A stretch of 64,000 nt of DNA, from positions 1 through 64,000 of the forward strand of contig NW_027331277.1 in the NCBI RefSeq assembly GCF_022965805.1, given 5' to 3'. Shown here one piece after another: positions 8,372 through 34,194 of the stretch; positions within the stretch are counted from its first letter, which is position 1, and every line of letters begins with the position of its first letter. The notes beneath the pieces are model-generated. The model was not told the DNA's origin. It made no database searches and saw only the letters and a list, made by a program, of their open reading frames with translations. The DNA is from Primulina eburnea (lineage: Eukaryota > Streptophyta > Magnoliopsida > Lamiales > Gesneriaceae). Made by a program: the position numbers and the translations under genes.

Positions 8372-8539
8372 CTCGCTCGGGCGGTCAAAAGTTGCCGCCC
8401 GGGCGAGTAATTCTCGACCCTCGCCCATTCCAGCAGCCTCGCTCGGGCGGTCAAAAACATCCGCCCGGGCGAGTGACTCCCGGCCCTCATCTCCGAGGCA
8501 CTCTCGCTCGGGCGGTCAAAAAATGTCCGCCCGGGCGAG
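8372..8539. repeat. Three GC-rich palindromic modules in the Tekay 1 U3
   Basis: Modules lie at 8372-8407, 8438-8473 and 8503-8539, with starts 66 and 65 bp apart. Each has a left arm CTCGCTCGGGCGG, a loop of 10-11 nt beginning TCAAAA and a right arm CCGCCCGGGCGAG. The arms pair over 13 bp with one G-T wobble. Arm starts are 23, 23 and 24 bp apart. The surroundings are AT-rich. Confidence 0.9.
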
Positions 8540-8659
8540 TCACTTTCGCCCAACAGTATACATATTTAAATTTTAAATCTCAAAATGATCTGGTTGCATT
8601 CATATCTACTCAACATCGATAATCTCAAACTAACGTTTTATAAAATCTTGGGCCTTACA

Positions 8660-8671
8660 TTTCTCCCCTCT
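8660..8671 (-). other. Polypurine tract of Tekay 1
   Basis: In sense it reads AGAGGGGAGAAA and abuts the 3' LTR start TGTAAGG. This is the expected position and composition of a plus-strand primer for reverse transcription. Confidence 0.85.
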
Positions 8672-8758
8672 AAGACATAAGTTCGTCCTCGAACTTGATA
8701 TAAATCAATTAGAGTATTTAAAACAGCATTACCATCTAAAACCGAATAAAAACTCACA

Positions 8759-11700
8759 TCATATAAATAACTCGGGGTGTTTCTGTCTCATGTCTGCCTC
8801 TGTTTCCCAAGTCGCTTCCTCGATGCCATGACGACTCCACTGAACTTTCACAAGTGGAATAGTCTTCGTTCTGAGTTGCTTATCTTTCCGATCAAGAATC
8901 TGTATCGGTTGTTCAACGTAGCTCAAGGTTTGATCAACCTCAGCTTCGTCAGGACGAATGATATGAGAAACATCAGGCATGTATTTACGCAACATTGATA
9001 CATGAAAGACGTCATGTATCCCAGATAGAGAAGGAGGAAGAGCCAGTCGATATGCTCGATCGCCAATCTTCTCTAGAATCTCGTAAGGACCGACGTATCT
9101 AGGAGCTAACTTTCCACGCTTGCCAAATCTGACAACGCCTCTGAAGGGGGAAATTTTCAAGAACACTCTATCTCCTCGTTCAAATACCAACGGTCTACGT
9201 CTGATATTGGCGTATTTGGCTTGCCTATCCTGTGCTGTCTTCATTCTTTTCTGAATAACTTTCACCTTCTCAGTCATGTCACGAATCATATCTGGCCCAA
9301 GTTCTGGTACCTCTGAAACGTCATCCCAGTATAGCGGAGATCTGCACTTCTCGCCATACAAAGCTTCAAACGGTGCCATCTCGATACTCGTCTGATAGCT
9401 ATTATTGTAAGAGAATTCGCAAAGAGGTAGGGAATCTTGCCAACCAATGCCAAAATCTAGCACGATGGCTCTCAACATATCCTCTAAAGTCTGGATAGTC
9501 CGCTCTGACTGTCCATCTGTCTGAGGATGGTAAGCAGTACTCAGGTGTAATGTCGTACCTAAGGCCTGCTGTAGACTGTGCCAGAAGTGTGAAGTGAATC
9601 GTGGATCACGATCTGATACGATAGACTTCGGCACTCCATGCAATCTGACTACCTCACGAATATAAATCTCCGCCATCTGATCCTGTCTATACGTCATTCT
9701 GTATGGGATGAAACAAGCAGATTTGGTCAATCTGTCAATAATAACCCAAATCGCATCGCAGCCTCTGGATGATCGTGGTAACTTCGTCACAAAATCTTTG
9801 GAAATGTGATCCCATTTCCATTCTGGAATGGCTAAACTTTGAAGTAATCCACCAGGTTTCTTCCTCTCAGCTTTCACCTGTTGGCAGTTCAAACACTTAG
9901 ACACAAATTCGGCAATGTCTGACTTCATTTGCTTCCACCAGAACTGTGTCTTCAAGTCGTTGTACATCTTCCTGCCACCCGGATGAATGCTGAACCGACT
10001 ACAATGTGCCTCTGTCAGAATCTGCTGTCTCAAATCTGCAACATCTGGCACAACTAGACGGTTATTCACGTACAACACATGATCTCGTACCTGATATTCT
10101 AATACATGCCCTGATCTGACCATTTGGATTGATTTCTGCACATTCTGATCGGTTCTTTGTGCTTCCTTGATCCTCATAATCAAATTGGGCTCAACTTGGA
10201 TCGTAAAAAGTCGTAGTGGCTTACTATCTGTATCAAATTCTAATCCAGATGTACAGCAATTTTCAACTAACTTGTTAACACCTATCGTCGATAAGGACAA
10301 AGAACATACCTTACGACTCAAGGCATCTGCTGCTGCATTTGACTTCCCTGGATAATATTTGATTTCACAGTCAAAATCTTTCAGAAGATCTAGCCATCTA
10401 CGCTGCCTCATGTTCAGTTCTGATTGAGAGAATAGGTACTTTAGGCTCTTGTGATCGGAAAAGATCTCAAATTTCTCGCCGTAGAGATATTGACGCCAAA
10501 TCTTTAATGCAAATACGATAGCCGCCAATTCCAGATCATGAATGGGGTATCGAACTTCATGTGGCTTCAATTGTCTCGAGGCGTATGCGATCACATGGCC
10601 TCGTTGCATAAGAACACATCCCAAACCTCTATGAGAAGCATCACAATATACAACGAAATCACCCGTACCTGAAGGTATCGTCAGTACTGGAGCACTGGTC
10701 AGCCTTTTCTTCAACTCTAGAAAGCTAGACTCGCACTCCTCTGACCAAACAAATGGTGCATTCTTTTGCGTCAATTGAGTTATTGGCTTTGCAATACTGG
10801 AGAAATCTTTGATAAGTCTTCTGTAGTATCCGGCTAAGCCCATGAAACTGCGTATTTCTGGTACAGAAGTCGGTCTCGACCAACTGATCACAGCTTCCAC
10901 TTTACTCGGATCAACAGAAATACCATCTCCAGAAATGATATGCCCCAAGAATACAACTCGGTTCAGCCAAAACTCACACTTTGACAATTTAGCATACAGT
11001 CGCTCGTTTCTCAACGTCTGCAAAACAATTCTGAGATGCTCTGCATGCTCATTTCTGTTCTTCGAATACACCAAAATGTCATCAATGAAGACAATCACAA
11101 ATTCATCTAAATATTTCTGAAACACTTGGTTCATCAAGCCCATAAATACCGCAGGAGCATTTGTTAAACCGAAAGGCATGACAATAAATTCGTAATGTCC
11201 ATACCTAGTTCGAAATGCTGTCTTCGGTATGTCTATATCTCGAACTCGGAGCTGATGATATCCGGATCGCAAATCAATCTTAGAATACACAGAGGATCGC
11301 TGCAACTGATCAAATAGGTCATCGATCCTAGGCAAAGGATATTTATTCTTGATCGTTGCCTTGTTCAGTTGCCTGTAATCAATACACAAACGCATCGAAC
11401 CATCTTTCTTCCGCACAAACAGCACCGGAGCGCCCCAAGGAGATACACTAGGTCTGATATATCCCTTGGCCAGAAGATCTTCTAACTGTGCTTTCAGTTC
11501 TTTTAGTTCGATGGGTGCCATCCTATACGGAGCTCTCGAAATAGGGACGGTACCTGGTGTAAGATCAATACTAAAGTCTACCTCACGAACCGGAGGTAAT
11601 CCTGGGATCTCATCTGGAAAAATATCAGCAAATTCCCGCACTACTGGTATATCTGCCAACGCCGGGCTCGACTTTTGCATATCTACAGCATAAATAAGGA

Positions 11701-12187
11701 AACCATCTGCTCCTTTTTGTAACAATTTGTTCATAGTAAGAGCCGAAATCAAGGGAATCCGAGATCTGGAACCCTTTCCGTAGAATTTCCACTCTTCTGC
11801 CATTTCTGGGCTGAACCTGACAATCTTGTGGAAACAATCCACGGTAGCTCTATACTTTGTTAACATGTCAATTCCAACAATACAATCAAAATCATCTAAC
11901 CCGAGTACTATGCAATCTAGATCAATTTCATGATCCTCAAACCGTAAGATGCAATGTCTAACCGTAGTCACCGATATCAAACCACTTCCTAACGGAGAAG
12001 TAATAGACACGACATCTAGTAGCGACTCAACAGGCAGAGAATGCAATAATGCAAATCGTTCTGATATGAATGTATGCGATGCACCCGTATCTATCAATAT
12101 ATAAGCAGGATAACCGCAAAGGAAACAGTTACCTGCAATGACATCATCTGGGGCATCCTGTGCTTGCTCTTCAGTCAAGGCAAACAC
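8759..12187 (-). CDS. pol: Pol polyprotein (PR-RT-RNase H-IN) of Tekay element 1
   Basis: An uninterrupted frame of 1142 residues. It carries an aspartic protease (DTGA at about 33-36), reverse transcriptase (FIDDILVYS, catalytic pair about 369-370), RNase H (about 510-625), and integrase with an HHCC zinc finger (H728, H735, C765, C768) and a catalytic triad D798, D859, E895 with the D-X35-E spacing. The C-terminal part has a chromodomain-like tail (EEATWE) ending PELFI. All key residues are present, so this protein may be functional. The frame opens right after a TAG codon (12188-12190) that separates it from gag, and its nominal start is GTG. In this clade gag and pol are normally one reading frame, so the stop is probably a mutation, although readthrough is possible. 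The polyprotein would copy element RNA and insert the cDNA. Confidence 0.93.
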
Positions 12188-13293
12188 CTAAGCCTGTTGT
12201 CTATGAGGCTGACTCCCTGGCTGGCCACCTTTGGCTCGAGGCTGGGTCTGTGCTGGTGGCGGCTGAAATGAGGAACAGATGAAGCTTGCCTCTCAGGCTG
12301 AGTCACGGAGGCAGACGATCCTGCAGCCTGAAATCTCGATGCACCACTCCTCTGAGGACAGACCTTGGCATAATGCCCCTGTTGTTTGCATACGTTACAC
12401 CTGCCCACTACACCTTGACATTGTTCTGTGGCATGCTTACCTCCACAAGTACTGCAATATCCACTTGCCACCTCTAGACTCTGGCCAAAACCTCTCTGTC
12501 TTGACCCGCTGGAGCTCGAAGAACTGCTCCCTGCCCTCTTAAACTGTTTACCCTTTGCTTTCAACTGATCTTTGCGTCCGCTGCTGCTACCACCACTTTC
12601 GAAGCGAGGAGGAGGTTGTACTGGAGGTAATGGCGGTCTTGGACTCAGAGCCACATACGGAACACTCCGTTGCCTAAGCAATCCTGCTTCAGCTCCTTTG
12701 GCACGGTTCAATGCTTCAGCGAAATTATTGGGTCTCCCAGTATTGACCAATGTAAAGACATCAGGATTTAAGCCATTTATAAACTGATCTGCCATGGCCT
12801 CATCATTGCCTGAAACGTGAGGTGCAAAGCGAAGCAAAGAAGAAAATTTAGCAACGTACTCTTCAATGTTCAATTGCCCTTGCCTCAGGTTTGCAAATTC
12901 AGCGCATTTATCTTTGCGATAGGATACAGGGAAGAATCGCTGATAGAACTCCGTCTTGAATGCTTTCCATGTAACCTCAGTGCCACGCTGTTCTAGTACT
13001 CTCCTTATATTCACCCACCAATACTTAGCCACATCTTGTAGTTGATGGCCAATGAGTTTCACTCGTTTCTCGTCACTATATTCCAGAGACTCGAATAACA
13101 TCTCAATGTCCTCAAGCCAACTTTCACACTCGATGGCATTCTCGGTACCTTTTAATGTGGGAGGTCGAAAGGATTGGAATCGCTTCAGCAACGTCTCCAT
13201 AGGGGTCGCCGTAACATCCATAGGATCTCCGGATGTGCTCCCCTGTTCTGGCGCTGCTGGTCGTAGAGGTACGGCTGCTCTTCTAGGAGGCAT
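12175..13293 (-). CDS. gag: Gag of Tekay element 1
   Basis: 372 residues starting MPPRRAA. It has a retrotransposon gag capsid region (about 30-200, with W and YxxxF-type motifs such as EFYQRFFP), a serine-rich linker, and a zinc knuckle around residue 300 ([15 protein letters not shown]). It would form the particle and bind element RNA. The start is the first ATG after the primer binding site and leader. The last 30 or so residues come from a shifted frame: near 12267 one base appears lost, and the neighbouring frame continues with a Pro/Gln-rich linker as far as the TAG at 12188-12190. One indel plus one stop therefore separates gag from pol. Confidence 0.9.
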
Positions 13294-13530
13294 ATCTAAT
13301 GAACCAACAGATTAGTAAACAAGATATACTACTGTCTCAGCCATCCTCTAGTCAGTTACCTCTGATCTAGAATCGGTTCTGATTCAGTCTTAACCAATAC
13401 ATGCTGTAATCAATCAAATAACAAACAACATGTAACGAGTGAAGCAATAAACATGCTAGCACATCATAGAGCAAGGAAGAAGACTCGATCTACCCCGCTC
13501 ATTCTATTCTATCTCAATCTATAGAACCTA
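13294..13530 (-). other. Untranslated leader of Tekay 1
   Basis: AT-rich sequence between the primer binding site and the gag ATG. I see no reading frame or repeat in it. Confidence 0.7.
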
Positions 13531-13544
13531 TGGCTCTGATACCA
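13531..13544 (-). other. Primer binding site (initiator tRNA-Met) of Tekay 1
   Basis: In sense it reads TGGTATCAGAGCCA, complementary to the 3' end of plant initiator tRNA-Met. A 5-nt spacer separates it from the 5' LTR end at 13550. Confidence 0.93.
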
Positions 13545-14006
13545 CCTGTTGTGGGGACCCGGGCTCTAATTCTTTTCTTTGGGATTAAAACGGATCATTA
13601 ATATAAAAAGTGGGTCAAATTTTTTGCTTTTAACATTAATTCTAATGTTATATAACTCAAGCATACACCATAGGTATTAACAACATAATCTATAACAAAA
13701 GATACAAATATGTCTGGTTCCAAACCATATTCGACAACTAGTAATTAAATACAGTACATGCCAAAAGTACAACTACTAGTTCTTCTGCTATGCCCGAGAT
13801 CACCACGCTATGTCCATCTCTCATCCTCTGCGTGACCCAGATCCTGCCCCACCTGTTGTTATGCATACATACAGACATAACAACAGCCGGAAAACCGGTG
13901 AGAACAAATCCCAGTATAAACATGTATACATGCATATAATCAATTAAACATGAAACATGCTATCATGAATGACATCATATGCACATGCAATGCAATGCGA
14001 ATCAAA

Positions 14007-14011
14007 CCATG
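14007..14011. repeat. Target site duplication CCATG, left of Tekay element 2
   Basis: CCATG precedes TGTGACACC and is repeated at 21799-21803 after the TTACA terminus. The intact left LTR of element 1 has a single CAAACCATGTCTGG at the matching place (about 7263). Confidence 0.95.
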
Positions 14012-15590
14012 TGTGACACCCTGACCTCTTTTAAAATAAATACGCAGCGGAAATAAAAATAATTTTCTTTAAAATATGGAAGGAGTTTCAAAATACATTT
14101 CTTCAAATATCTTTACAAAATAAATACATGATCATTTAAATGACATAACAAAAACAAAACATCATTTCTATGATCATGCCAAAATCCTACCTTTCAACGG
14201 TGTATGCATATGACCCCCGATCTACAGTCAACGTCCCTAGGCACCACTCTGATCTGCATCACATGAAAATAACTGAAATGAGAATAAATCTCAGCAAGTG
14301 GAACTCTTATATAACAATGAACAATAACTCTGTAAAACATCTCTTTGAAATCATAAATACCATCAACTCTGAAATATGAATACTGTAGCAATAACTGTAG
14401 CAATAGCATATAAAATATGATGGTATTTCTCTTTTGCTCTGGGGATTGATATCAATAGTATCTCTGCTCTGGGGTGCTCGTATCCCAAATCGATATAAAT
14501 ACCGATAACTCTGAGGGATATAAGCCTATAGGCGATGATCATCTAATATTGCATGCAATCTCTGACTATGTATTTATCAATCCGAAAACATTTGAACTCT
14601 GAATAGCATTTAAGGCCGTCCTTTCACAATCTCATATTTTCTCTTGTATTCCCTTTTAACAATAGCGAGACATACAATGCCTCCAATAGATAATCAATGA
14701 AATCAATACATAACAATGGATCAATGGAAGGGAATAACACTTTAAAACCTTTAAAACACAATACATATAATATCATGTGAGCAAAAAGGATGAAATTCCA
14801 CTTACAAACCCCAACAAACACCTTAACTTAGCTCTTGATCACCACCTACAACAAATAATCCACAAATAACACCAATATCAACTAAATATCCAAGATTACA
14901 AGCTAAATAATCCATAAATCCACATAAACAACCAACCTAAACAACTCTTAATTTACAACCTTAACAGAATCGCACCAAAAGCTTACCCAAGCTTCCTAGC
15001 ACCAAGGAGAACGTCGAACTCAAGTCGAAATTCCAAACAAACGCCTGAATCGAAGATAGGAAAGGAAAGAAATGACTAAAAACCCTTGAAATGGAGAGAA
15101 ATGTCGAGAATGGAGGAGAAAAGAAAGGGAAAGTATGGCCAACCACTCCAAAAAGTAGCTTAAAAACTCGCCCATACCTTCACCGCGGGTGCACTCCTCT
15201 AAGCACCGCGGGTGCGCAATGGTTTCGGTAGCCACAAAAATTCTGGAACACGAACAGCGCGGGTGCGGCAACGTAAGCAGCGCGGGTGCGGTCTCTACCG
15301 CGGGTGCGGTCCCTACATCACCGCGGGTGCGGTGATGCTACGGCATTCCAACTCCAAAACAGCACAGTAAGTTAAGAGCGCGGGTGCACTCAAGTCACGG
15401 CCAAGCACTATTCCCATGCAACTAAAATCGAACCGACACTCTGAAACGAACAACCAACATCAACTAACACCTCAAGACAATAAAACTAACAATACTATAG
15501 CCCAAAAATACAACTCTGAACATCTAATCAAATATCCCAAAATAACAAACGAAACTTAAATCGTACCGTACACCGGGCTCGGCTATTACA
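14012..15590 (-). repeat. 3' LTR of Tekay element 2
   Basis: Termini TGTGACACCC and CTATTACA, 1579 bp. Compared with the right LTR it lacks 17 bp inside the GC-box cluster near 15370 and differs by short indels near 14100 and 14190. Confidence 0.95.
15181..15387 (-). repeat. Paired GC-box cluster in the Tekay 2 U3
   Basis: Seven copies of a 12-mer of the type CACCGCGGGTGC (sense GCACCCGCGGTG), starting at 15181, 15204, 15255, 15278, 15296, 15319 and 15376. They form pairs exactly 23 bp apart: 15181/15204, 15255/15278 and 15296/15319. In the right LTR (21372-21595) the seventh box also has its partner (21561/21584, again 23 bp), which the 17-bp indel removed here. The cluster is 200-410 bp from the U3 start. 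Confidence 0.9.
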
Positions 15591-15604
15591 ATCTCCCCCC
15601 CTTA
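15591..15604 (-). other. Polypurine tract of Tekay 2
   Basis: In sense it reads AAGGGGGGGAGAT, directly before the 3' LTR start TGTAATAGCC. Confidence 0.85.
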
Positions 15605-15630
15605 AGGGAATTTCGTCCGCGAAATTGACG

Positions 15631-16099
15631 TCACGGCACGAACAACTCAGGATACTTCTCTCTCATCTCATCCTCTGGTTCCCACGTAGCCTCCTCTAAC
15701 AAATGGTTCCTCCAAAGAACTTTGACAATGCCGATCTCTTTGTTCCTCAGAACTCTAACTGTGCGATCCAGAATCTGAATCGGAATCTCTTGATACGTCA
15801 AATTCGGCGTCAAGTCCAATGGCTCATGGCGAAGAACATGGGAAGGATCTGCAACATACTTCCTGAGCATCGATACGTGAAAAACATTATGGACTCTGTC
15901 AAGATCTGGAGGTAGGGCTAATCTGTAGGCTCGATCGCCAACTCTGTCCAATATCTCAAAAGGGCCAATAAACCTCGGACTCAGTTTACCCTTCTTGCCA
16001 AATCTCATCACACCCTTGAGAGGTGCTATCTTCAAAAATACATGATCGCCAACCTCGAACTGCAAAGGTCTACGACGAACATCTGCATAGCTCTTCTGT
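15631..16099 (-). pseudogene. pol: Pol of Tekay 2: integrase C-terminal part
   Basis: This frame carries the integrase tail after the catalytic core: an FEVGDHVFLKI-type segment, a GPFEIL...[10 protein letters not shown] segment, and the chromodomain-like EEATWE ending, stopping shortly before the polypurine tract. It lies one frame away from the upstream pol segment. An extra base near 16095-16105 causes the shift and creates a TAG just after MKTAQS. It is homologous to the same region of element 1 pol. It cannot be made as part of the polyprotein without frameshifting. Confidence 0.9.
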
Positions 16100-20063: not shown

Positions 20064-20182
20064 CCTCTACTCTACAATGCTCACAAGACACCAATCAATA
20101 CATAACAATAGATAGATGCAAAGAAAACATACCCGGACAGTTGAAAGTAGACGAAGTCATATGCATTGGTCCGAAGAACACC

Positions 20183-20199: not shown

Positions 20200-21798
20200 T
20201 GTGACACCCTGACCTCTTTTAAAATAAATACGCAGCGGAAATAAAAATAATTTTCTTTAAAATATGGAAGGAGTTTCAAAATACATTTCTAAAAATAATT
20301 TTCTTTACAAAATAAATACATGATCATTTAAATGACATAACAAAAACAAAACATCATTTCTATGATCATGCCAAAATCCTCCTTTCAACGGTGTATGCAT
20401 ATGACCCCCGATCTACAGTCAACGTCCCTAGGCACCACTCTGATCTGCATCACATGAAAATAACTGAAATGAGAATAAATCTCAGCAAGTGGAACTCTTA
20501 TATAACAATGAACAATAACTCTGTAAAACATCTCTTTGAAATCATAAATACCATCAACTCTGAAATATGAATACTGTAGCAATAACTGTAGCAATAGCAT
20601 ATAAAATATGATGGTATTTCTCTTTTGCTCTGGGGATTGATATCAATAGTATCTCTGCTCTGGGGTGCTCGTATCCCAAATCGATATAAATACCGATAAC
20701 TCTGAGGGATATAAGCCTATAGGCGATGATCATCTAATATTGCATGCAATCTCTGACTATGTATTTATCAATCCGAAAACATTTGAACTCTGAATAGCAT
20801 TTAAGGCCGTCCTTTCACAATCTCATATTTTCTCTTGTATTCCCTTTTAACAATAGCGAGACATACAATGCCTCCAATAGATAATCAATGAAATCAATAC
20901 ATAACAATGGATCAATGGAAGGGAATAACACTTTAAAACCTTTAAAACACAATACATATAATATCATGTGAGCAAAAAGGATGAAATTCCACTTACAAAC
21001 CCCAACAAACACCTCAACTTAGCTCTTGATCACCACCTACAACAAATAATCCACAAATAACACCAATATCAACTAAATATCCAAGATTACAAGCTAAATA
21101 ATCCATAAATCCACATAAACAACCAACCTAAACAACTCTTAATTTACAACCTTAACAGAATCGCACCAAAAGCTTACCCAAGCTTCCTAGCACCAAGGAG
21201 AACGTCGAACTCAAGTCGAAATTCCAAACAAACGCCTGAATCGAAGATAGGAAAGGAAAGAAATGACTAAAAACCCTTGAAATGGAGAGAAATGTCGAGA
21301 ATGGAGGAGAAAAGAAAGGGAAAGTATGGCCAACCACTCCAAAAAGTAGCTTAAAAACTCGCCCATACCTTCACCGCGGGTGCACTCCTCTAAGCACCGC
21401 GGGTGCGCAATGGTTTCGGCAGCCACAAAAATTCTGGAACACGAACAGCGCGGGTGCGGCAACGCAAGCAGCGCGGGTGCGGTCTCTACCGCGGGTGCGG
21501 TCCCTACATCACCGCGGGTGCGGTGATGCTACGGCATTCCAACTCCAAAACAGCACAGTACACCGTGGGGGCACTCCAGTTAAGAGCGCGGGTGCACTCA
21601 AGTCACGGCCAAGCACTATTCCCATGCAACTAAAATCGAACCGACACTCTGAAACGAACAACCAACATCAACTAACACCTCAAGACAATAAAACTAACAA
21701 TACTATAGCCCAAAAATACAACTCTGAACATCTAATCAAATATCCCAAAATAACAAACGAAACTTAAATCGTACCGTACACCGGGCTCGGCTATTACA
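20200..21798 (-). repeat. 5' LTR of Tekay element 2
   Basis: 1599 bp, from TGTGACACCC to CTATTACA. It carries four complete 23-bp-spaced GC-box pairs within 21372-21595. Confidence 0.95.
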
Positions 21799-22905
21799 CC
21801 ATGTCTGGATTCGACTCGACTAGAACTCTAGGGATCCCGGTGTGAATAAGACGTCACTACCTACCCTCCAATCGGGGTAATGAACGTCTCATTCCTAGAC
21901 TTCGGTCTGAGCTGTATCAACGGCGGCAATAAGAGTAATACCTACTCCTATGCTGAGATACACCGAAACGTCTAGCTATTTGACAATGCCTGTCAACGAC
22001 TCTCCTATCTTAGATGCAATGAATATCAATATGTAAACAAAGTATAATCATATTCATATCTGAATATCACACTGATCATACATGCTTGAATACAATTCTG
22101 AAATCAAAGCATAAACATGTTAAAAGATTGAATATAAGGCTATACACAATTCATAAACATGTTACAATATATCTAATAATACTAGTATGTGATTTTGGTT
22201 GGGAAACTCAAGTAATATCTTATTTGAGTTATGGCTTCCCAAACAAACATAGCTTATACCTTTCTTGTTGAACAGTCGGTGTCAAAGTCTCGAGATCAGT
22301 ATGTCAACTCTGTCAAGTTTAGTCTGAAATGACAATGTGTAGATATATTCTATCAATGTACCACTCAACAAATCTTGTACAATTCAATTATCGGTCTCAG
22401 TATAAATTGACGGCATAACGACGTATTTCTTCAATACCGATAATTCAACAACACTAAACTCAATATCAACAATTCCTAATCTCCTCAAAATACAAAGTCT
22501 CACACTGAAATATCCCATCTCAACTCAATAAACATGCTGGAAATCGAAACTATAGCATATGACTTCCGTTCTTTGATCCGTTTGCGATTCTACAATATCT
22601 ATTATCTCAAGAACATAATATATAGTTCAATTCATCATTTACCCAACACATAAATATCAAAACATGCTGGAATTAAATGAAACTTACATTACTTTGAAGC
22701 TAGTAGCACAAGGATTACAAATCTAAGCTCGGTTTAAAAATCGGTTGATAAAATCTTGCACAACCACCATTTAAAAGCATGAAGGAACTTGTATTGCTTT
22801 GGAGCTCTCGGTCAAGTGCTGGAGTGAAAAGGAATGAATTGAAGACACATTATATATACTTTGCATGTCTAAGAACACATGGCTCATCCTTGGGTGTACA
22901 CGGCT

Positions 22906-23073
22906 CTCGCTCGGGCGGTCAAAAGTTGCCGCCCGGGCGAGTAATTCTCGACCCTCGCCCATTCCAGCAGCCTCGCTCGGGCGGTCAAAAACATCCGCCC
23001 GGGCGAGTGACTCCCGGCCCTCATCTCCGAGGCACTCTCGCTCGGGCGGTCAAAAAATGTCCGCCCGGGCGAG
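22906..23073. repeat. GC-rich palindromic modules, second Tekay 1 LTR
   Basis: Exact counterparts of the three hairpins in the left LTR, with the same 36-37 bp modules and 66/65 bp period. Confidence 0.9.
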
Positions 23074-23193
23074 TCACTTTCGCCCAACAGTATACATATT
23101 TAAATTTTAAATCTCAAAATGATCTGGTTGCATTCATATCTACTCAACATCGATAATCTCAAACTAACGTGTTATAAAATCTTGGGCCTTACA

Positions 23194-23198
23194 TAGAT
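23194..23198. repeat. Target site duplication TAGAT, right of Tekay element 1
   Basis: Matches 6803-6807; the satellite monomer resumes immediately with TCTCTAAGATGG. Confidence 0.95.
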
Positions 23199-25140
23199 TC
23201 TCTAAGATGGCACATTTTATAGCTTGTCATAAAACCGATGATGCTTCAAACATTGCGGATTTGTTCTTTAGAGAAGTTGTAAGGTTGTATGGCACGACTA
23301 GGACTATTGCTTCTGATCGCGATGTTAAATTCTTGAGTTACTTTTGGAAGACTTTATGTGCTAAACTTGGCACAAAATTGTTGTTTTCTACTACTTGTCA
23401 TCCTCAAACGGATGGACAAACTAAAGTTGTCAATAGAACTTTGGGAACACTTTTGCGTGCTATTCTTAAAAAGAACTTGGATTGACATTTCTATGGACTT
23501 AATTTTGGGTTGCCTAGGACTAAGAAGGGGAGGGATTCTATTTTTGTTGTTGTGGATAGATTCTCTAAGATGGCACATTTTATAGCTTGTCATAAAACCG
23601 ATGATGCTTCAAACACTGCAGATTTGTTCTTTAGAGAAGTCGTTAGGTTGCATGGCATAACTAGGACTTTTGCTTTTGATCGCGATGTTAAATTCTTGAG
23701 TTACTTTTGGAAAACTTTATGGGCTAAACTTGGCACAAAATTGTTGTTTTCTACTACTTGTCCTCCTCAAACGAATGGACAAACTGAAGTTGTCAATAGA
23801 ACTTTGGGAACACTTTTGCGTGCTATTCTTAAAAAGAACTTGGATTGACATTTCTATGGAATATATTTTGGGTTGCCTAGGACTAAGAAGGGGATGGATT
23901 CTATTTTTTTTGTTGTGGATAGATTCTCTAAGATGGCACATTTTATAGCTTGTCATAAAACCGATGATGCTTCAAACATTGCGGATTTGTTCTTTAGAGA
24001 AGTCGCTAGGTTGCATGGCATGCCTAGGACTATTGTTTCTGGTCGCGATGTTAAATTATTGAGTTACTTTTGGAAGACTTTCTGGGCTAAACTTGGCACA
24101 AAATTGTTGTTTTCTACTACTTGTCATCCTCAAACGGATGGACAAACTGAAGTTGTCAATAGAACTTTGGGAACACTTTTACGTGCTATTCTTAAAAAGA
24201 ACTTGGATTGGCATTTTTATGGACTTTATTTTAACTTTGCCTAGTACTAAGAATGGGAGGGATTCTATTTTTGTTGTTGTGGATAGATTCTCTAAGATGG
24301 CACATTTTATAGCTTGTCATAAAATCGATGATGCTTCAAACATTGCGGATTTGTTCTTTCGAGAAGTCGTTAGGTTGCATGGCATGCCTAGGACTATTGT
24401 TTCTGGTCGCGATGTTAAATTCTTGAGTTACTTTTGGAATACTTTTTGGGCTAAACTTGGCACAAAATTGTTGTTTTCTACTACTTGTCATCCTCAAACG
24501 GATGGACAAACTGAAGTTGTCAATAGAACTTTGGGAACACTTTTGCGTGCTATTCTTAAAAAGAACTTGGATTGACATTTTTATGGACTTTATTTTGGGT
24601 TTGCCTTGTACTAAGAAGGGGAGGGATTCTATTTTTGTTGTTGTGGATAGATTCTCTAATATGGCACATTTTATAGCTTGTCATAAAATCGATGATGCTT
24701 CAAACATTGCGGATTTGTTCTTTCGAGAAGTCGTTAGGTTGCATGGCATGACTAGGACTATTGCTTCTGATCGCGATGTTAAATTCTTGAGTTACTTTTG
24801 GAATACTTTTTGGGCTAAACATGGCACAAAATTGTTGTTTTCTACTACTTGTCATCCTCAAACGGATGGACAAACTGAAGTTGTCAATAGAACTTTGGGA
24901 ACACTATTGCGTGCTATTCTTAAAAAGAACTTGGATTGACATTTCTATGGACTTTATTTTGGTTGCCTAGGACTAAGAAGGGGAGGGATTCTATTTTGGT
25001 TGTTGTGGATAGATTCTCTAAGATGACACATTTTATAGCTTGTCATATAACCGATGATGCTTCAAACATTGCGGATTTGTTCTTTAAAGAAGTCGCTAGG
25101 TTGCGTGGCATGCCTAGGACTATTTTTTCTGGTTCTATGT
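23199..25140 (+). repeat. Integrase-derived satellite array, block 2
   Basis: Continuation of the array cut by Tekay 1. The interrupted monomer is 6725-6807 plus 23199-23479 (364 bp). Further boundaries are at 23480, 23843, 24206, 24570 and 24934. The last unit stops after 207 bp at about 25140, where retrotransposon gag sequence begins without any LTR end. Units match those of block 3 one for one (23480/36339, 23843/36702, 24206/37065, 24570/37430, 24934/37795). Confidence 0.95.
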
Positions 25141-26172: not shown

Positions 26173-26234
26173 CCATACAAAAGAAAAATGAGGAAAAAGA
26201 AAATGAGAGGAAAGAGGCCAAAAAGAAAACATAT

Positions 26235-27305: not shown

Positions 27306-28077
27306 TAAATGCGCCTTTACTTGTTTTGCCTGATTTTGCTAATACTTTTGAAATTGAATGTGATGCTTCAGGTGTAGGCATTGGTGGTGTTTTGATGCAA
27401 GGAGGACGACCAGTGGCGTACTTTAGTGAGAAACTCAATGGAGCAGCACTGAACTATCCAACGTATGACAAGGAGTTGTACGCGCTTGTGAGAACCTTGG
27501 AGGTGTGGCAACACTACTTGAGGCCTAAAGAGTTTGTGATTCACACGGATCATGAGTCTCTTAAGCACCTTAAGGGGCAACAAAAGTTGAACAAGCGTCA
27601 TGCTAAGTGGGTGGCATTCATAGGTACATTTCCCTACATAATCAAATACAAACAAGGTAAGGATAATGTAGTGGCCGACGCACTATCACGGAGGTACGTA
27701 TTAATCTCTACCTTGGATTCGAAAATCTTGGGATTTGAACATATGAAAGAGATGTATTTGTTGGATGAGGATTTTAAGGAGATATTTGAAACATGTATGC
27801 ATGGTCCACATGATAAATTTTATTTGCATAATGGGTTTTTATTTAGAGAAGATAGATTGTGCATTCCTAAGTCATCAATTCGTGAATTACTTGTGAGGGA
27901 GGCACATGGTGGAAGTTTAATGGGGCATTTTGGTGTGGCTAAAACTTTGAGTTGTTTGCATGAGCATTTTTATTGGCCACATATGAAACGTGATGTTGAA
28001 CGTGTTTGTGAAAAATGCATTACTTGTAGACAAGCTAAGTCTAGAACACAACCACATGGATTGTATACACAACTTCC
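27258..28077 (+). pseudogene. pol: RNase H and integrase zinc finger of the source-family element
   Basis: Homology resumes in a new frame near 27258. RNase H shows [40 protein letters not shown] and VVADALSRR. It is followed by the integrase N-terminal zinc finger ([10 protein letters not shown] and [11 protein letters not shown], the HHCC pattern). The integrase reads up to LYTQLP and is then cut by the nested element at 28078. The frame continues into that LTR up to 28483, but those residues are not integrase. The rest of the integrase is at 32859 onward. Confidence 0.9.
28073..28077. repeat. Target site duplication CTTCC, left of nested element
   Basis: CTTCC precedes TGATGCGAAC and recurs at 32859-32863 after CACGTCA. 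Across it the integrase reading is continuous between 28077 and 32864. Confidence 0.95.
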
Positions 28078-28229
28078 TGATGCGAACATGGTAGCCTTGC
28101 ACGGGCGTATGAGCGAAGAAGATGGATTTACGTGCGAGGAGCAAAGTGGTGGGGGGCTCGGGATGCATGGAAGAATGTTGGAGGGCCAAAGGAATAGGAC
28201 TCAAGCATTAATCTCCTCAACCGAGTCTT

Positions 28230-28477
28230 CACGGACCTCGACACGGACCTGCACACGGGGTCCGTGCCCTTTACATCCGGAGATAAGCAAATACAGAGTC
28301 TACACGGACCCGACGACGGACCCAGGCACGGGGTCCGTGCCCTTTGTTATTGGCAAATACAGTGCCTACACGGACCCGCACACGGAGGCGAGCACGGGGT
28401 CCGTGTCCCTTGTTCCGGCTGAAGTTGTTACCCGAGTGTACACGGACCCGGACACGGAGGCACACACGGGGTCCGTG
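28230..28477 (+). repeat. Four 37-bp palindromic modules in the gag-only element U3
   Basis: Modules at 28230-28266, 28303-28339, 28369-28405 and 28441-28477. Each begins CACGGACC and ends GGGTCCGTG (inverted ends), with a CACGG-like core repeated at internal offsets 0, 12 and 24. Starts are 73, 66 and 72 bp apart. The second LTR has them at 32142, 32215, 32281 and 32353. Confidence 0.92.
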
Positions 28478-28555
28478 TCCTAGAGTTTTGGCCGAGAAAA
28501 ATTACTTTATTTAGAGTTTTATTTTGTTAGGAAACTAGATTTTATGATATCTTTT

Positions 28556-28564
28556 GATATATAG
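28556..28564 (+). promoter_or_regulatory. Putative TATA box, gag-only element LTR
   Basis: GATATATAG, about 80 bp downstream of the last palindromic module; same site at 32468-32476 in the other LTR. It is a motif match only. Confidence 0.45.
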
Positions 28565-28948
28565 ACTATGTTGAACGAATTTTTAGAACACAATACACAT
28601 ATTATTTTGAGTTTATCAAACTTGTGAGAATTTTCTCTCAACTTTTCAAAGCTTTTAGCTTTGTCAAATCAAATCAAACTTATCAAAGTTTTTAACTTTG
28701 TGGCGTTTGTCGGTCGTTGCTTGTGCGGATTGTCGTAGGCAAAGTTCTTCGAAGGTTCGTATAGTTTCCGATTGTTTATCCTCATGTTTATTTGTTGCTA
28801 AACTCTTGCTAGTTTAGAGGTGAATATCACACAATACTTGAATCAAAAGATCGGGAAAACACACGGATCTTAATATCGTAATTGAATAGAGGGTGCGATT
28901 TATTTTTAATCGTGTTTGCTATTTATTCGTATCAAGATTCACGTCATT

Positions 28949-28960
28949 TGGTATCAGAGC
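28949..28960 (+). other. Primer binding site (initiator tRNA-Met), gag-only element
   Basis: TGGTATCAGAGC, two bases after the LTR end CACGTCA. Confidence 0.93.
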
Positions 28961-29557
28961 CCAGGTTTATTGAATTCAAGTAAATTATCTTGTTCTTAAA
29001 TTGCAGATCTGTATTATCTATTCGTTTATTTTCAGATCTGTTTTGTTCTATCGTTCTTCGTAATTTTTTCGTGAATCTGTGATTCTCGAAATTTGTTGTT
29101 GATTTTTTTTTTTTGGGATTTTCGAGTAGTACTCAAGCCAAAAAAAAAAAAAAAATACAAAAATTCCGAAAATTCACCATTATTTCATTTTGATATATTG
29201 TTCTATTCCCTTTAGAGAGTCATATTTAATTGTCTCTCACAGTCAAAAAATAAAAATAAAAATTTCCTATATTAGAATTTCTTGTCTACACAGTCCAAGT
29301 GAGTCGGTCGCATTTGTTCACAAGTTTGAACTTTGATTGTTTGATATCCCAAATACAAAGCTTGAGCACACTTTTGAGAGTACTATCAAATTCGAGTGGA
29401 AACATTTGAGTGTGAGTGTTATTTCTTTGGAGTGACTAGTGAGTATTTGTTGTGAGCAAACAAATAAGAGGTAAAAGACGAGTGAATTTCTTTGGAGAGA
29501 TCGTGAGCATTTGGGTGAGGATTATTTTATTTCCACTAACCTTTTCTTGCAGGTATA
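28961..29557 (+). other. Untranslated leader of the gag-only element
   Basis: AT-rich, about 600 bp. It contains a T12 run (29103-29114) followed 25 bp later by an A16 run (29140-29155), which could pair as a long A-T hairpin. No reading frame is evident before the ATG at 29558. Confidence 0.7.
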
Positions 29558-30748
29558 ATGATTGACGAACGTCAATTTCAAACAATGTTAGGAGGGTTGG
29601 ATAAAATATGGGAGGAGGAGTTTAAGCCCTTACGTGAGAGGTATAGGCGGTGCGAGGAAGAGGAGACATATGATAGGCGGGTTGGTGAGAATAGGCGAGG
29701 TAGGAGAGTTGATGTAAATAGATCGTTGCATGTGAATTATGATGATGATAGGCGATGTGAGGAGAATAGTGGGTATAAATGTCGGGGAGTGTATAGGAGA
29801 AGTCACACTAAGATGATAGTTCCATCTTTTAGTGGGAGAGCCGATCCAAAGGAGTACCTTGAGTGGGAGAGAAGGATGGAATGTATATTTGAGAGCCGGG
29901 AGGATTATACCGAAGCCATGAAGGTAAGACGAGCTTGTAGTGCGTTTACCAACTATGCTACTTCTTGGTGGGATAAGTTAGTATTGTGTAGGAGACGATG
30001 TGGGTATGACCCTATAATTACGTGGGATGAGATGAAAAGGGTGATGAGGAAACAATTTGCTCCAAATCAAAATAATAGGAGAGGTGGCAGGAGAGATGAG
30101 CATAGCTTGTATGATGATTCATTGGCTTCCCCTTGGCGGGCGAGCTTGGAAGAGAAGAAGGTCATGACTAGACCGAAGTTTGTCTCGAAGCATGGGTATC
30201 AAGGTACATCTAAAATTTCAAAATTTAGTACTTTTGATATTCAATGTATTTGGTGTCTAGAGTTTGGACATTATATTACCCAATGTCCACGTGAGGAGAT
30301 GACCGTAGTAAAATCGCTAGTTGAGCTTAAATCTCAAATGGAGGTGGATATTGCGGTTGAGTCTCAATTGGAGGATGAGGTTGCAGTCGAGTGTGGAGTT
30401 GAAGTGAGCATTGATGTTGAGCCTAAAGTGGAGGTTGAGGGAATTGAGAAGGTTGGTACTCCACTGATTTCTGACTTGAGAATAGAGTGTTGTGCTGTGG
30501 AGGGTGAATTCTTAGATGGTGGATTTGTTTCTAATGTGTGTGCTATGGAGGAGAAAAAAGAAAGTAGTAATAATTTGTTGCAGGCATGTTATGATTCATC
30601 ATGTACCTTTCTTGATCCATCTATTTCAATTGTAATTACTGACGATCAACTGCAATCTAATTGTGTGAGTGAAAAAGAATTTAAAATGGCCGAAAGAAAG
30701 AGAGATCAAAAGAGTGAGATGGCCATAGAAAAGAAAAAAGAGAGATAA
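29558..30748 (+). CDS. gag: Shortened Gag of the non-autonomous element
   Basis: 396 residues from the first good ATG after the leader. It has a charged Arg/Glu-rich N-terminus, a capsid N-lobe (about 88-170, IVPSFSGRADPKEYLEWERRMECIFE and SWWDKL), and a zinc knuckle with C230, C233, H238 and C243. An acidic region made of degenerate repeats rich in EVDIAVE and VEVE follows, then a Lys/Glu tail. The capsid C-lobe present in the related element ([12 protein letters not shown]) is missing between about 175 and 215, so the protein is internally deleted yet still open. Retention of an open gag in an element with no pol is the mark of TR-GAG elements; whether it still assembles is unknown. Confidence 0.85.
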   Translation: MIDERQFQTMLGGLDKIWEEEFKPLRERYRRCEEEETYDRRVGENRRGRRVDVNRSLHVNYDDDRRCEENSGYKCRGVYRRSHTKMIVPSFSGRADPKEYLEWERRMECIFESREDYTEAMKVRRACSAFTNYATSWWDKLVLCRRRCGYDPIITWDEMKRVMRKQFAPNQNNRRGGRRDEHSLYDDSLASPWRASLEEKKVMTRPKFVSKHGYQGTSKISKFSTFDIQCIWCLEFGHYITQCPREEMTVVKSLVELKSQMEVDIAVESQLEDEVAVECGVEVSIDVEPKVEVEGIEKVGTPLISDLRIECCAVEGEFLDGGFVSNVCAMEEKKESSNNLLQACYDSSCTFLDPSISIVITDDQLQSNCVSEKEFKMAERKRDQKSEMAIEKKKER

Positions 30749-30781
30749 GATGAAAATGCAAAAGAGGCCAAAGAAAAAGAA

Positions 30782-32395
30782 ATGAAAAATAATTTGATGG
30801 CCCAAAGGAGTGAAAAGAGTGAGGATGAGAGTTGCTTATTATTGCATAAACCATTACATGTACCTTTGTACAAAGTGGTTTATCCATATTGTGATGATAT
30901 CGCCGGTTCAATCCCGAGCATTGTTAATTTTTCTTTGCAAGATTCTATTGGTGTCATGATGTGGAGGCGAGCAAGTAGAGATGGTGTGGGAAAGCCATGG
31001 AATGACCCATATGACTTCGAAGGCAATCAAGGTGAGGTAAGGTTAGTTGCCAGCGCAACAACCATGAGGTATGATTTGCTTCCTTACCTTAATTCATTGT
31101 TGTTTTGTTTTCAAGAATTATGGGGACAAGTTGGAAATGTGTTGTTTAGAAGATGTGAATGTGATTTAATCTTGTTGCCTAAGTGTCATAGAAGTGAGAA
31201 TGAATACGCATTGCATGAATTAGATTCAAATGTTATTGATTTTGAGTGTTCAAAGATTGTCCAATTGACACTTTGTCATGGCAATGACCTATGTGCATTA
31301 GGATTAACTTCATGTGGTGAGTTGAATGATAACATGGATAGTACATTTAGTGTGTTCTATTTGCATGATTCCTACTTGTTTGATGAAGACTTTGGGAAGA
31401 GCATGAATGACTATAAGAATTTCTTTGTCCATGATGAATATACTTTTAAGGAGATTAAGTTGTTCATGTTATGCTCATTTTACGAGTTACCCGCTAGTGA
31501 TGCATATTGTCATGATTTCATTATTGATAAGATGCATGCATTTCAATGTTGGTTACATATAAAAAGGTATGTCGAATGGTGTTGTAACGAGGGTCTTGCA
31601 TGTATGAAGATAGCAAGTAGGTTAGGGTTCTATGACATGCATGACTTAATTCTTAGTCCTAGTAAGCAATATATTTACATTTGTACCATACTTGCTTTGG
31701 TGTTGACTAGGTCTAAGAAGGGGAGGAACTTGATATTTTTGATACTTAATCATATTTTATCATTTGGTGTCCTTTGTTGTTTGGTGTATATTGAGGTTGG
31801 TGATTTGATAGTGAAAGAAACCTTGGAGTTGGAGTTCAAAGCGTGGATGGAGCACGTGGGCGATAGCACCTACAAACTTGAGCTTAAAGGTAAGTATGTT
31901 GGTAATTTAATTCTTGTTATTACTAACTTGCGTCGCTTTTGTGTAGGTAGTGAAGATTTGAGGACAAATCCTTTTCAAGAAGGGGAGGATGATGCGAACA
32001 TGGTAGCCTTGCACGGGCGTATGAGCGAAGAAGATGGATTTACGTGCGAGGAGCAAAGTGGTGGGGGGTTCGGGATGCATGGAAGAATGTTGGAGGGCCA
32101 AAGGAATAGGACTCAAGCATTAATCTCCTCAACCGAGTCTTCACGGACCTCGACACGGACCTGCACACGGGGTCCGTGCCCTTTACATCCGGAGATAAGC
32201 AAATACAGAGCCTACACGGACCCGACGACGGACCCAGGCACGGGGTCCGTGCCCTTTGTTATTGGCAAATACAGTGCCTACACGGACCCGCACACGGAGG
32301 CGAGCACGGGGTCCGTGTCCCTTGTTCCGGCTGAAGTTGTTACCCGAGTGTACACGGACCCGGACACGGAGGCACACACGGGGTCCGTGTCCTAG
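30782..32395 (+). CDS. Second ORF of the non-autonomous element, a degenerate pol remnant reading into the LTR
   Basis: 537 residues, of which about 400 precede the LTR. I find no RT, RNase H or integrase catalytic motif. Short islands match the host-element polyprotein in order: MAQRSEKSE and GSIPSIVNFSLQ (linker before RT), TRSKKGRNLIF (start of integrase core), and STYKLELKGKYV plus [15 protein letters not shown] (integrase C-terminus). The sequence is thus the collapsed remainder of pol that happens, or is selected, to stay open. The last 135 residues are translated U3, including the palindromic modules as YTDP and TGSV repeats. It could be a real adaptor protein or chance; a Leu/Cys-rich middle offers no recognisable fold. 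Confidence 0.5.
   Translation: MKNNLMAQRSEKSEDESCLLLHKPLHVPLYKVVYPYCDDIAGSIPSIVNFSLQDSIGVMMWRRASRDGVGKPWNDPYDFEGNQGEVRLVASATTMRYDLLPYLNSLLFCFQELWGQVGNVLFRRCECDLILLPKCHRSENEYALHELDSNVIDFECSKIVQLTLCHGNDLCALGLTSCGELNDNMDSTFSVFYLHDSYLFDEDFGKSMNDYKNFFVHDEYTFKEIKLFMLCSFYELPASDAYCHDFIIDKMHAFQCWLHIKRYVEWCCNEGLACMKIASRLGFYDMHDLILSPSKQYIYICTILALVLTRSKKGRNLIFLILNHILSFGVLCCLVYIEVGDLIVKETLELEFKAWMEHVGDSTYKLELKGKYVGNLILVITNLRRFCVGSEDLRTNPFQEGEDDANMVALHGRMSEEDGFTCEEQSGGGFGMHGRMLEGQRNRTQALISSTESSRTSTRTCTRGPCPLHPEISKYRAYTDPTTDPGTGSVPFVIGKYSAYTDPHTEASTGSVSLVPAEVVTRVYTDPDTEAHTGSVS
31976..31989 (+). other. Polypurine tract, gag-only element
   Basis: AAGAAGGGGAGGA just before the LTR start TGATGCG; it lies inside the NPFQEGE coding context. 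Confidence 0.85.
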
Positions 32396-32858
32396 AGTTT
32401 TGGCCGAGAAAAATTACCTTATTTAGAGTTTTATTTTGTTAGGAAACTAGATTTTATGATATCTTTTGATATATAGACTATGTTGAACGAATTTTTAGAA
32501 CACAATACACATATTATTTTGAGTTTATCAAACTTGTGAGAATTTTCTCTCAACTTCTCAAAGCTTTTAGCTTTGTCAAATCAAATCAAACTTATCAAAG
32601 TTTTTAACTTTGTGGCGTTTGTCGGTCGTTGCTTGTGCGGATTGTCGTAGGCAAAGTTCTTCGAAGGTTCGTATAGTTTTCGATTGTTTATCCTCGTGTT
32701 TATTTGTTGCTAAACTCTTGCTAGTTTAGAGGTGAATATCACACAATACTTGAATCAAAAGATCGGGAAAACACACGGATCTTAATATCGTAATTGAATA
32801 GAGGGTGCGATTTATTTTTAATCGTGTTTGTTATTTATTCGTATCAAGATTCACGTCA
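31990..32858 (+). repeat. 3' LTR of the nested gag-only element
   Basis: 869 bp, same length as the 5' copy, ending CACGTCA before CTTCC. About seven single-base differences from 28078-28946 by eye, below 1 percent. Confidence 0.95.
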
Positions 32859-34046
32859 CTTCCTGTTCCTAGTGAACCTTGGGTTGATATCTCTATGGAC
32901 TTTGTTTTGGGGTTGCCTAGGACTAAGAAGGGGAGGGATTCAATATTTGTTGTTGTTGATAGATTCTCTAAGATGGCACATTTTATTGCTTGTCACAAAA
33001 CTGATGATGCATCCAACATTGCAGATTTGTTCTTTAAAGAAGTCGTTAGGTTGCATGGTATGCCTAGGACTATCGTTTCTGATCGTGATGTTAAATTTTT
33101 GAGTTACTTTTGGAAAACTTTGTGGGCTAAGCTTGGCACTAAACTGTTGTTTTCTACTACATGTCATCCTCAAACGGATGGACAAACTGAAGTTGTTAAT
33201 AGAACTCTAGGAACACTTTTGCGTGCTATACTCAAAAAGAACTTGAAAAATTGGGAAGAATGTTTGTCATTTGTTGAGTTTGCTTATAACCGTAGCGTGC
33301 ATTCTACTACGAATTATTCACCATTTGAGATTGTTTATGGTTTTAATCCTTTGACTCAGTTGGATTTGTTGTCTTTGCCTGTGAGTGAAAGGTTAAACAT
33401 GGATGGGCAAAAGAAGGCTGAATTTGTTAGGAGTTTGCATGAGAAGGTCAAGGCGAACATCGAGAAGAAGAATTTACAATACACGAAACAAGCCAACAAG
33501 GGAAGGAAAAAGATGGTTTTTGAAAAGGGAGATTGGGTGTGGTTGCACTTAAGGAAGGAAAGATTTCCAGAAAAGCGACGTTCAAAACTCTTACCTAGGG
33601 GTGATGGACCATTTCAAGTGCTTGAAAAGATTAACGACAATGCCTACAAACTAGAACTACCAGGTGAGTACAATGTCAGTTCTACTTTTAATGTTAGTGA
33701 TCTTTCGTTGTTTGATGTAGGAGATGATCAAGATTTGAGGACAAATCCTTTTCAAGAAGGTGAGAATGATGCAAACGTGGTTGATCAAGCACCAAAGAAA
33801 GCATGGGAGTCGTTGGAGTTGCCCGAAGGACCCATAACGAGAGGACGTAGCATGAAGTTTAAAGAAGCACTTCAAGTACTCATGATGAACTACCAAAGAG
33901 GTTCTACAAACTTGGTGACCAAATTAGAGGAGGTTGGGAATCATGGGAATTATATTGGAGAGTTTTGGAATGTTATTCAAGGGGTCATGGTCGAAGCAGA
34001 ACCGCACCCGCGCTCCAACAGGGAGTGCACCCGCGCTCCAAGATGA
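32859..34046 (+). pseudogene. pol: Integrase core and C-terminus of the source-family element, with an LTR-encoded tail
   Basis: The continuation of the interrupted integrase. The core has MDF, SDRDVKF and DGQTEVVN carrying the D, D and E residues with D-X35-E spacing. The C-terminal region follows ([57 protein letters not shown]). The frame does not stop at the polypurine tract (33753-33766) but runs 93 residues into the 3' LTR, where a [15 protein letters not shown] segment lies before the tail becomes GC-box translation. A coding region overlapping the 3' LTR is known from CRM-type chromoviruses. The stretch 32882-33245 is the template sequence of the satellite monomer and is undamaged here. 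Confidence 0.9.
33753..33766 (+). other. Polypurine tract of the source-family element
   Basis: AAGAAGGTGAGAA before the LTR start TGATGCAAAC. One T interrupts the run; the position matches the nested relative. Confidence 0.75.
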
Positions 34047-34194
34047 AATTCGCCGAAGCAGCACCGCTCCCGCGCTCAAAACAGGATCGCCCCCGCGGTC
34101 TTGCTAAAAAAAAAAAAAAATTTTTTTTTTTTTTTCTAATTTTTTTTCCGAGACTGTACCGCACCGCGGTCCAGTCTGCAGCGCACCCGCGGTC
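34004..34194 (+). repeat. Paired GC-box cluster in the source-family U3
   Basis: Six boxes of the GCACCCGCG type start at 34004, 34027, 34066, 34089, 34161 and 34183. They form three pairs 23, 23 and 22 bp apart; the last is 23 when measured at the box ends, because 34161 lacks one C. The box and its orientation match the sense strand of the Tekay 2 boxes. Confidence 0.9.
34106..34135. repeat. A15T15 palindrome in the LTR
   Basis: Fifteen A directly followed by fifteen T, between GC-box pairs two and three. A run this long is easily miscounted in sequencing. Confidence 0.8.

Follow-up and report, generated by a model that had tools for sequence, protein, structure and literature searches.

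Clusters of GC-rich boxes in the LTRs of four Ty3/gypsy families resemble plant retrotransposon promoter switches, with a fixed-gap pair design in two of them

Three described systems come closest to the arrays reported here: the Sireviruses and Tnt1, both Ty1/copia elements, and Del, which we take to be the lineage otherwise called Tekay. Sirevirus LTRs were described as carrying clustered palindromic CpG-rich boxes upstream of the TATA (Bousios et al. 2010; PMC2829016). Of the 13 motifs listed there, all except one have a CGG-CCG core, and Sirevirus palindromes have been reported as hotspots of small-RNA mapping (PMC5311732, PMC10760457). Del LTRs contain variable 5' CpG islands (Cruz et al. 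2014; PMC4029996). For Tnt1, the BII boxes of the promoter are cited as binding defence-induced factors (PMC3316501), and in its superfamily U3 evolves in modules, independently of the coding region (PMC1838419).

In the window, meaning the whole 64,000-nucleotide stretch of Primulina eburnea DNA that was analysed, four families carry GC-rich modules in the U3 of their LTRs. Our findings suggest that these modules are probably arrays of upstream promoter/enhancer sites, specific to each Ty3/gypsy family, with two lineages sharing one paired-site module. T1 and T2 are presumably Tekay-like elements 1 and 2, a lineage name that follows the earlier note; SRC is a CRM-like source-family element and GO a gag-only element. 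Pfam matches to RVT_1, RT_RNaseH and Retrotrans_gag/Ty3_capsid in T1 and T2 (with SH3_Tf2-1 in T1), and to RVT_1, RT_RNaseH, rve and SH3_Tf2-1 in SRC, identify these three as Ty3/gypsy type; the Pfam search found no chromodomain in T1 or T2. The sole Pfam match of GO, to Retrotrans_gag, lies just below the curated cut-off (23.3 bits vs 24.1). The pol proteins of T1 and T2 are 61% identical over 690 aa, and 52-57% identical to SRC in RT; the second T1 LTR copy is interrupted by T2. Close to the end of the SRC ORF, a 15-residue stretch may resemble the CR motif expected at the integrase C-terminus in CRM clade group A. The SRC LTR reads TGATG...TATCA, which is the TGATG...T/CATCA pattern of CRM clade group A (PMC3059260), and its pol ORF extends to 34046 with the LTR beginning at 33767, the coding region entering the 3' LTR as in that group; this is the single SRC LTR found in the window, and its start was placed at the TGATG after a purine tract, not by an LTR pair. 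The features are as follows.

8316..8324, minus strand: T1 TATA-like site, 48 bp past the last module
8372..8407, minus strand: T1 module 3, inverted GC arms, 36 bp, 3' LTR
8438..8473, minus strand: T1 module 2, inverted pair, 36 bp
8503..8539, minus strand: T1 module 1, inverted pair, 37 bp
15184..15388, minus strand: T2 left LTR array, three complete box pairs and one single box whose partner is missing
21375..21596, minus strand: T2 right LTR array, four box pairs with 23-bp spacing
21564-21596, 21490-21522, 21449-21481 and 21375-21407, minus strand: the T2 right LTR pairs
22906..23073, minus strand: T1 modules 1-3 again, in the second LTR copy of T1
28230..28477, plus strand: GO left LTR, four 37-bp modules with a direct period of 12 bp and an inverted arm
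28558..28565, plus strand: GO TATA-like site, 81 bp past the last module
32142..32389, plus strand: GO right LTR, the same four modules
34003..34035, plus strand: SRC module 1, pair 23 bp apart, within the pol ORF tail (stop 34044-34046)
34065..34097, plus strand: SRC module 2, pair 23 bp apart, ungapped alignment with T2 module 2
34160..34191, plus strand: SRC module 3, pair 22 bp apart, one spacer base missing from the first box
34267..34274, plus strand: SRC TATA-like site, 76 bp past the last module

The modules stand where the earlier note had placed them: inverted pairs of 36, 36 and 37 bp at 8372, 8438 and 8503 in T1, and SRC pairs spaced 23, 23 and 22 bp, of which the last includes a box that lacks one spacer base. 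Its counts for T2, three modules on the left and four on the right with 23-bp spacing, also agree with ours. The left LTR has three since, aligned to the right one, it lacks the second box of module 1 through a gap; in the right LTR this box carries three mismatches to the consensus. The four 37-bp GO modules do show CACGG at 0, 12 and 24, but one module has GACGG as its middle box. Periods range from 41 to 95 bp across the arrays (66/66 in T1, 74/41/74 in T2), and modules within one family look like duplicates and are thus not independent counts. The equal 41-bp T2 spacers were considered as a conserved feature and rejected (13/41 identical, shuffle mean 11.0, p 0.28).

In all four families the arrays are located between 122 and 425 bp into the LTR, inside the 110-430 bp proposed earlier; the first modules begin 122-237 bp in, and every box starts in the upper half of its LTR. 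A TATA-like site, previously assigned to all four families, follows the array within 48-81 bp in three of them, but T2 has no good TATA, only a TTTTAA 19 bp past the array. The window has 21 CpG-island-like stretches, and all seven module clusters are located within these. In T1, T2 and SRC the modules exceed the remaining LTR in CpG o/e, but in GO they do not (1.05 vs 1.25); this GO value and the lack of a good TATA in T2 both speak against the enhancer-array reading. Among GC-rich 9-mer pairs, 240 of the 285 in the window start within the 1,529 bp of U3 zones, which were drawn after the data were seen. Outside U3, a GC-box cluster at about 51850-51990, in what is taken for a putative Copia leader, repeats at 29 bp. 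In presumed Copia LTRs of the window, segments of 60 and 81 bp that are free of GC boxes are duplicated in tandem.

That no system of this form had been described, as was supposed, is wrong in part, given the palindromic box clusters published for Sireviruses. As there, short, palindromic GC-rich boxes cluster in the 5' half of the LTR, in CpG-island-like stretches that here precede a TATA-like site in three of the four families, and their sequence varies by element (PMC2829016). Against the Sirevirus profile of at least 8 copies per element, with most of the LTR copies in the upper half, CpG islands and a TATA soon after, the boxes per LTR number 8 in T2 right, 12 in GO, and 6 each in T1 and SRC. 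Unlike Sireviruses, which are Ty1/copia, the hosts here are Ty3/gypsy and so fall outside the Sirevirus group. The CGG-CCG core is also not general here: by eye, compact CGG-N3-CCG occurs in the third GO box only, T1 has CGG...CCG solely across the loop, and T2 and SRC have CCGC-ACCC-GCGG. A further difference is that T2 and SRC hold direct box pairs with a fixed 13-bp linker, and the available portion of the Sirevirus account notes no fixed pair spacing (PMC2829016). Like Del LTRs, taken as the T1/T2 lineage, the LTRs here have a variable CpG-rich stretch in their 5' part. However, the Del study reported its eudicot Del group to be free of islands, and its available text describes no boxes (PMC4029996), whereas the islands found here contain paired boxes, in a plant with mostly eudicot named protein hits. 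Tnt1, as a Ty1/copia element, offers a different setting. The factor binding cited for its boxes (PMC3316501) is putative for the four families here. Searches of viral_contigs returned no relatives of the T1 protein; DNA-pattern matches there (at least 120 stretches, of which 80 were listed, then 2 and 7) were presumed, from the listings, to be chance hits in GC-rich virus contigs. The motif letters occurred in 7 papers, none of which concerns plant LTRs to judge by its title.

Box sequences had been said to differ between most families, which is true of T1 and GO, but T2 and SRC share one module, box included. Their second modules align without gaps at 36 of 48 identical columns, covering the boxes and the flank beyond them, with a Smith-Waterman score of 36, where the best of 500 shuffles reached 27. 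A core CGC-N4-GCG common to T1 and T2/SRC was rejected by same-strand local alignment (T1-T2 p 0.55, T1-SRC p 0.75); on opposite strands T1-SRC gave p 0.01, one among 12 comparisons.

Since T2 and SRC share one similar module, they count once, which bears directly on the proposal that a single selected 23-24 bp spacing, independent of box sequence, is common to all four families. The numbers do gather near this value: 22-23 bp (direct) or 23-24 bp (inverted arms) in T1, 23 in T2, 22-23 in SRC and 24, twice 12, in GO. They mix direct with inverted definitions, however. The most frequent direct-repeat distance is 23 in T2 and SRC and 22 in T1 (23 second); in GO, 12 and 54 tie with a single pair apiece, and inverted pairs there are most frequent at 26 and 28, then 24 and 48. 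The GO "24" is 2 x 12, and T1 is an inverted pair unrelated to the T2/SRC design, with a spacing of 22-24 bp depending on the definition used; we estimate the chance of T1 landing within 1 bp of 23 at about 3 in 40. The GC-box cluster outside U3, with its 29-bp repeats, also tells against the proposal. A common four-family grammar is therefore very improbable, and for T1 and GO the agreement with 23-24 bp most likely reflects coincidence and register choice.

Inside the T2/SRC module, a constrained paired-site spacing has moderate support. The linker measures 13 nt in all seven pairs, while mean identity is 0.45 in linkers and 0.90 in boxes (0.26 expected by composition). Neutral evolution would predict 1.8-6.8 indels, giving P(0) of 0.17-0.001 depending on the assumptions of a test designed after the data were seen; with the lowest substitution count P is 0.05-0.17, which is not clear, and a star tree, as assumed, overstates the number of substitutions. 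The indel rate used, 0.09-0.15 per substitution, was estimated from three diverged pairs, and the six remaining of the nine gave 0, 0, 0, 0.36, 0.6 and 1.29. The linkers are also more alike than chance, so simple inheritance of a short module might have preserved their length, and in the coding SRC module 1 codon constraint could do the same.

These values bear on two simpler histories. Functionless duplication in tandem of a GC-rich patch, homogenised recently, would account for the duplicate-like modules and their periods, and has a parallel in the box-free duplications of the presumed Copia LTRs; yet boxes stay conserved while linkers of fixed length diverge, and a similar module stands in two lineages, which makes this history distinctly unlikely. 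Alternatively, template switching or recombination may have carried the module between T2 and a CRM element, in either direction, with the spacing a matter of plain descent. The likeness of the flank beyond the boxes suggests such a transfer, but the shared stretch is short and its internal linker poorly kept (0.38 between the second modules); we regard it as a tentative possibility, compatible with enhancer arrays.

The modules might instead act as RNA, folding in the transcript or serving as a source or target of siRNA, as Sirevirus palindromes may. This hairpin reading, raised earlier, fits T1, where folding is strong (z -5.8 to -6.9), and partly GO (z -1.9 to -3.2), but T2 and SRC give +0.1 to -2.8 with differing folds, for one LTR copy per family with a few flanking bases added in T2, GO and SRC. 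The 14 T2/SRC boxes showed no dyad covariation (p 0.74-0.89, eight settings). As an independent hairpin the T2/SRC box was rejected, with WC+GU pairs at positions 3-6 in 39/56 (shuffle mean 40.5, p 0.76). In sense RNA, U3 is found at the 3' end only, which also counts against an RNA role, and for the four families together we consider it unlikely.

Under the preferred enhancer-array reading, T1, GO and T2/SRC would each have their own box, amplified as tandem units a short distance ahead of the promoter, and the T2 and SRC arrays would descend from, or have converged on, one module. That module would consist of two copies of a 10-bp GC box (CGC-ACCC-GCG type) around a diverged linker of fixed 13 bp, which would suit the binding of both boxes by one protein or by two proteins in contact. 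The anatomy and position of the arrays, the T2-SRC likeness and the constant linker length are observed, and together with the TATA-like sites of three families and the CpG-island-like setting they favour this reading; from them we infer protein binding, transcription activation and selection at the arrays. A more specific version, which we offer only speculatively, is that Tekay and CRM elements in one plant use the same composite element with a 13-bp free-sequence linker, read by one host factor whose geometry would set the distance, the module having passed between lineages.

Taken as a whole, the GC-rich box clusters look like promoter switches already described in other plant retrotransposons, two of the four families apparently sharing a fixed-gap pair design. 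Should the module shared by T2 and SRC prove to be a composite binding site, it would provide a concrete probe for a host factor that acts in both retrotransposon lineages and would make it possible to ask if promoter parts are exchanged between unrelated elements. Otherwise, the arrays still document Sirevirus-like clusters of GC-rich boxes in Ty3/gypsy elements of this plant.

The window holds four Ty3/gypsy-type families, referred to here as T1 and T2 (Tekay-like elements 1 and 2), SRC (a CRM-like source-family element) and GO (a gag-only element), together with satellite and Copia-type sequence, arranged as follows.

1-6808, 23193-25131 and 34648-39659: satellite of about 363 bp
6809-8660, minus strand: left LTR of T1
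13551-14012 and 21798-23194, minus strand: right LTR of T1, in two pieces
14012-15590 and 20200-21798, minus strand: LTRs of T2
28078-28946 and 31990-32858: LTRs of GO
33767-34647, plus strand: 3' LTR of SRC
39770-64000: several Copia-type copies with Retrotran_gag_2 ORFs

The right LTR of T1 is split by the insertion of T2, and GO interrupts SRC. Pol identity between T1 and T2 is 61%, and their RT is 52-57% identical to that of SRC. We presume both to be Tekay, a name taken from the earlier note; Pfam detects no chromodomain in either. SRC shows two structural features typical of CRM elements, namely TGATG...TATCA ends and an ORF running into the LTR, as described for this clade in PMC3059260. 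As far as Pfam shows, GO is gag-only: its first ORF has a single Retrotrans_gag match, just under the curated cut-off, and its second has none. GO and SRC have in common an R-U5-like stretch of about 75% identity. Named proteins among the best 120 matches in each of two protein searches are mostly from eudicots, with one grass per list, and a viral_contigs search gave no usable match. One bacterial-labelled protein (Candidatus Paraburkholderia schumanniana), 67% identical to the plant integrase of this window, is probably plant contamination.

The GC-rich box clusters in the U3 of these LTRs, here called modules, take the following forms.

T1: three modules in sense orientation, of 37, 36 and 36 bp, each with two inverted arms
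T2, right LTR: four modules, direct box pairs 23 bp apart
SRC: three box pairs, spaced 23, 23 and 22 bp
GO: four modules of 37 bp, each with an inverted arm and with CACGG (GACGG once) at 0, 12 and 24

These counts agree with the earlier note, as does the CACGG series of GO save for the one GACGG. The modules lie at LTR positions 122-425, within the 110-430 bp from the U3 start given in the earlier note. The TATA-like site said to follow them is present 48, 76 and 81 bp downstream in T1, SRC and GO, respectively; T2 has only TTTTAA, 19 bp after its modules. Within SRC, runs of 15 A and 15 T occur at 34106-34147, between modules 2 and 3, where the spacer is lengthened to 62 bp; minus these 30 bases, the module period would be about 65, similar to the other period in SRC, which is 62.

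The window contains 285 pairs of GC-rich 9-mers, and 240 of them start in U3 module zones that were drawn post hoc. The other 45 include 33 in the bin 51750-51999, where boxes of the GGCTGCCC type at 51850-51990 form direct and inverted copies in a GC-rich, 29-bp repeat outside U3. This cluster sits in a 1.3-kb stretch that adjoins a presumed Copia LTR and matches no other part of the window over a long span. The presumed LTRs that the Copia-type copies have in common measure about 1.1 kb and contain AT-rich internal duplications of 60 and 81 bp, and the arrangement of the copies suggests that they arose in tandem via LTR recombination.

The earlier note further proposed that a 23-24 bp box spacing is common to all four families, which our comparison does not sustain. 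The commonest direct-repeat distance is 23 in T2 and SRC and 22 in T1, whereas for the cluster near 51900 it is 29. In GO, it is 12 or 54 (one pair each), and inverted pairs are most frequent at 26 and 28 (three each), then at 24 and 48 (two each). Judged by their sequence, the T2 and SRC modules are not independent, since their local alignment has a score of 36, whereas 500 shuffles averaged 17.0 and reached at most 27; the alignment is ungapped, identical in 36 of 48 columns, and takes in flank beyond the boxes. After correction, the 11 other comparisons between families or strands yield nothing notable; T1-SRC on opposite strands comes closest (p 0.01). The coincidence in spacing therefore comes down to T1, which lies within 1 bp of T2/SRC, with GO fitting by way of a doubled period.

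A hairpin was another candidate for a feature common to all modules. Folding relative to shuffles is clear in T1 (z -6.8, -5.8, -6.9), moderate in GO (-3.2, -1.9, -3.2, -3.2) and weak or absent in T2 (-1.9, -2.8, +0.1, -1.9) and SRC (-2.1, -2.0, -2.8). Dyad covariation is absent across the 14 T2/SRC boxes, and with the weak folding this indicates that the hairpin is not a property common to the families.

Within T2/SRC, the linker between the two direct boxes (10 bp, one of 9 bp) is 13 nt in all seven modules. Mean identity is 0.90 among boxes (78 pairs, 9-bp box excluded) and 0.45 among linkers (21 pairs) versus 0.26 by chance. With 20-45 substitutions and an indel rate of 0.09-0.15 (six other pairs used as a gauge gave 0, 0, 0, 0.36, 0.6 and 1.29), 1.8 to 6.8 neutral linker indels are expected, so that the probability of none is 0.17 to 0.001, depending on substitution count and rate. 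This pattern argues moderately for constrained spacing in the T2/SRC module; the argument is weakened because the linkers exceed chance likeness and the first SRC module, at 34003-34046, belongs to the terminal coding segment of the integrase ORF that enters the LTR.

The satellite encodes part of a Ty3/gypsy integrase, as a 224-aa ORF across it matches Pfam rve, and it looks to be derived from a CRM-like element because its repeat family includes a copy within SRC pol (32906-33205). Maize CRM1TR/CRM4TR offer a precedent in principle for a CRM-derived satellite, although they stem from the LTR-UTR rather than from integrase.

Published systems offer several comparisons. In Sireviruses, the 13 elements listed with a repeated motif carry at least eight copies each, 117 of 127 LTR copies lie in the upper half, and clusters start 200-400 bp in, forming CpG islands that are followed by a TATA after a mean of 37 bp (PMC2829016); their palindromes are reported to be small-RNA hotspots (PMC5311732, PMC10760457). 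Del LTRs frequently have a 5' CpG island, variable in sequence and length and reported missing in the eudicot group studied (PMC4029996), and Tnt1 and its relatives are described as having tandem repeats in U3 and modular U3 evolution (PMC3316501, PMC1838419). Among the papers listed by literature searches, mostly outside subscription journals, none is recognisable as a description of a fixed 13-bp linker pair in Tekay or CRM LTRs.

Taken as a whole, the modules are most likely upstream activating arrays, and we infer that they bind a factor and activate transcription. In T2/SRC, a factor may contact two boxes 23 bp apart, or about 2.2 helical turns, which would account for the kept boxes, the diverged linker sequence and the constant linker length.
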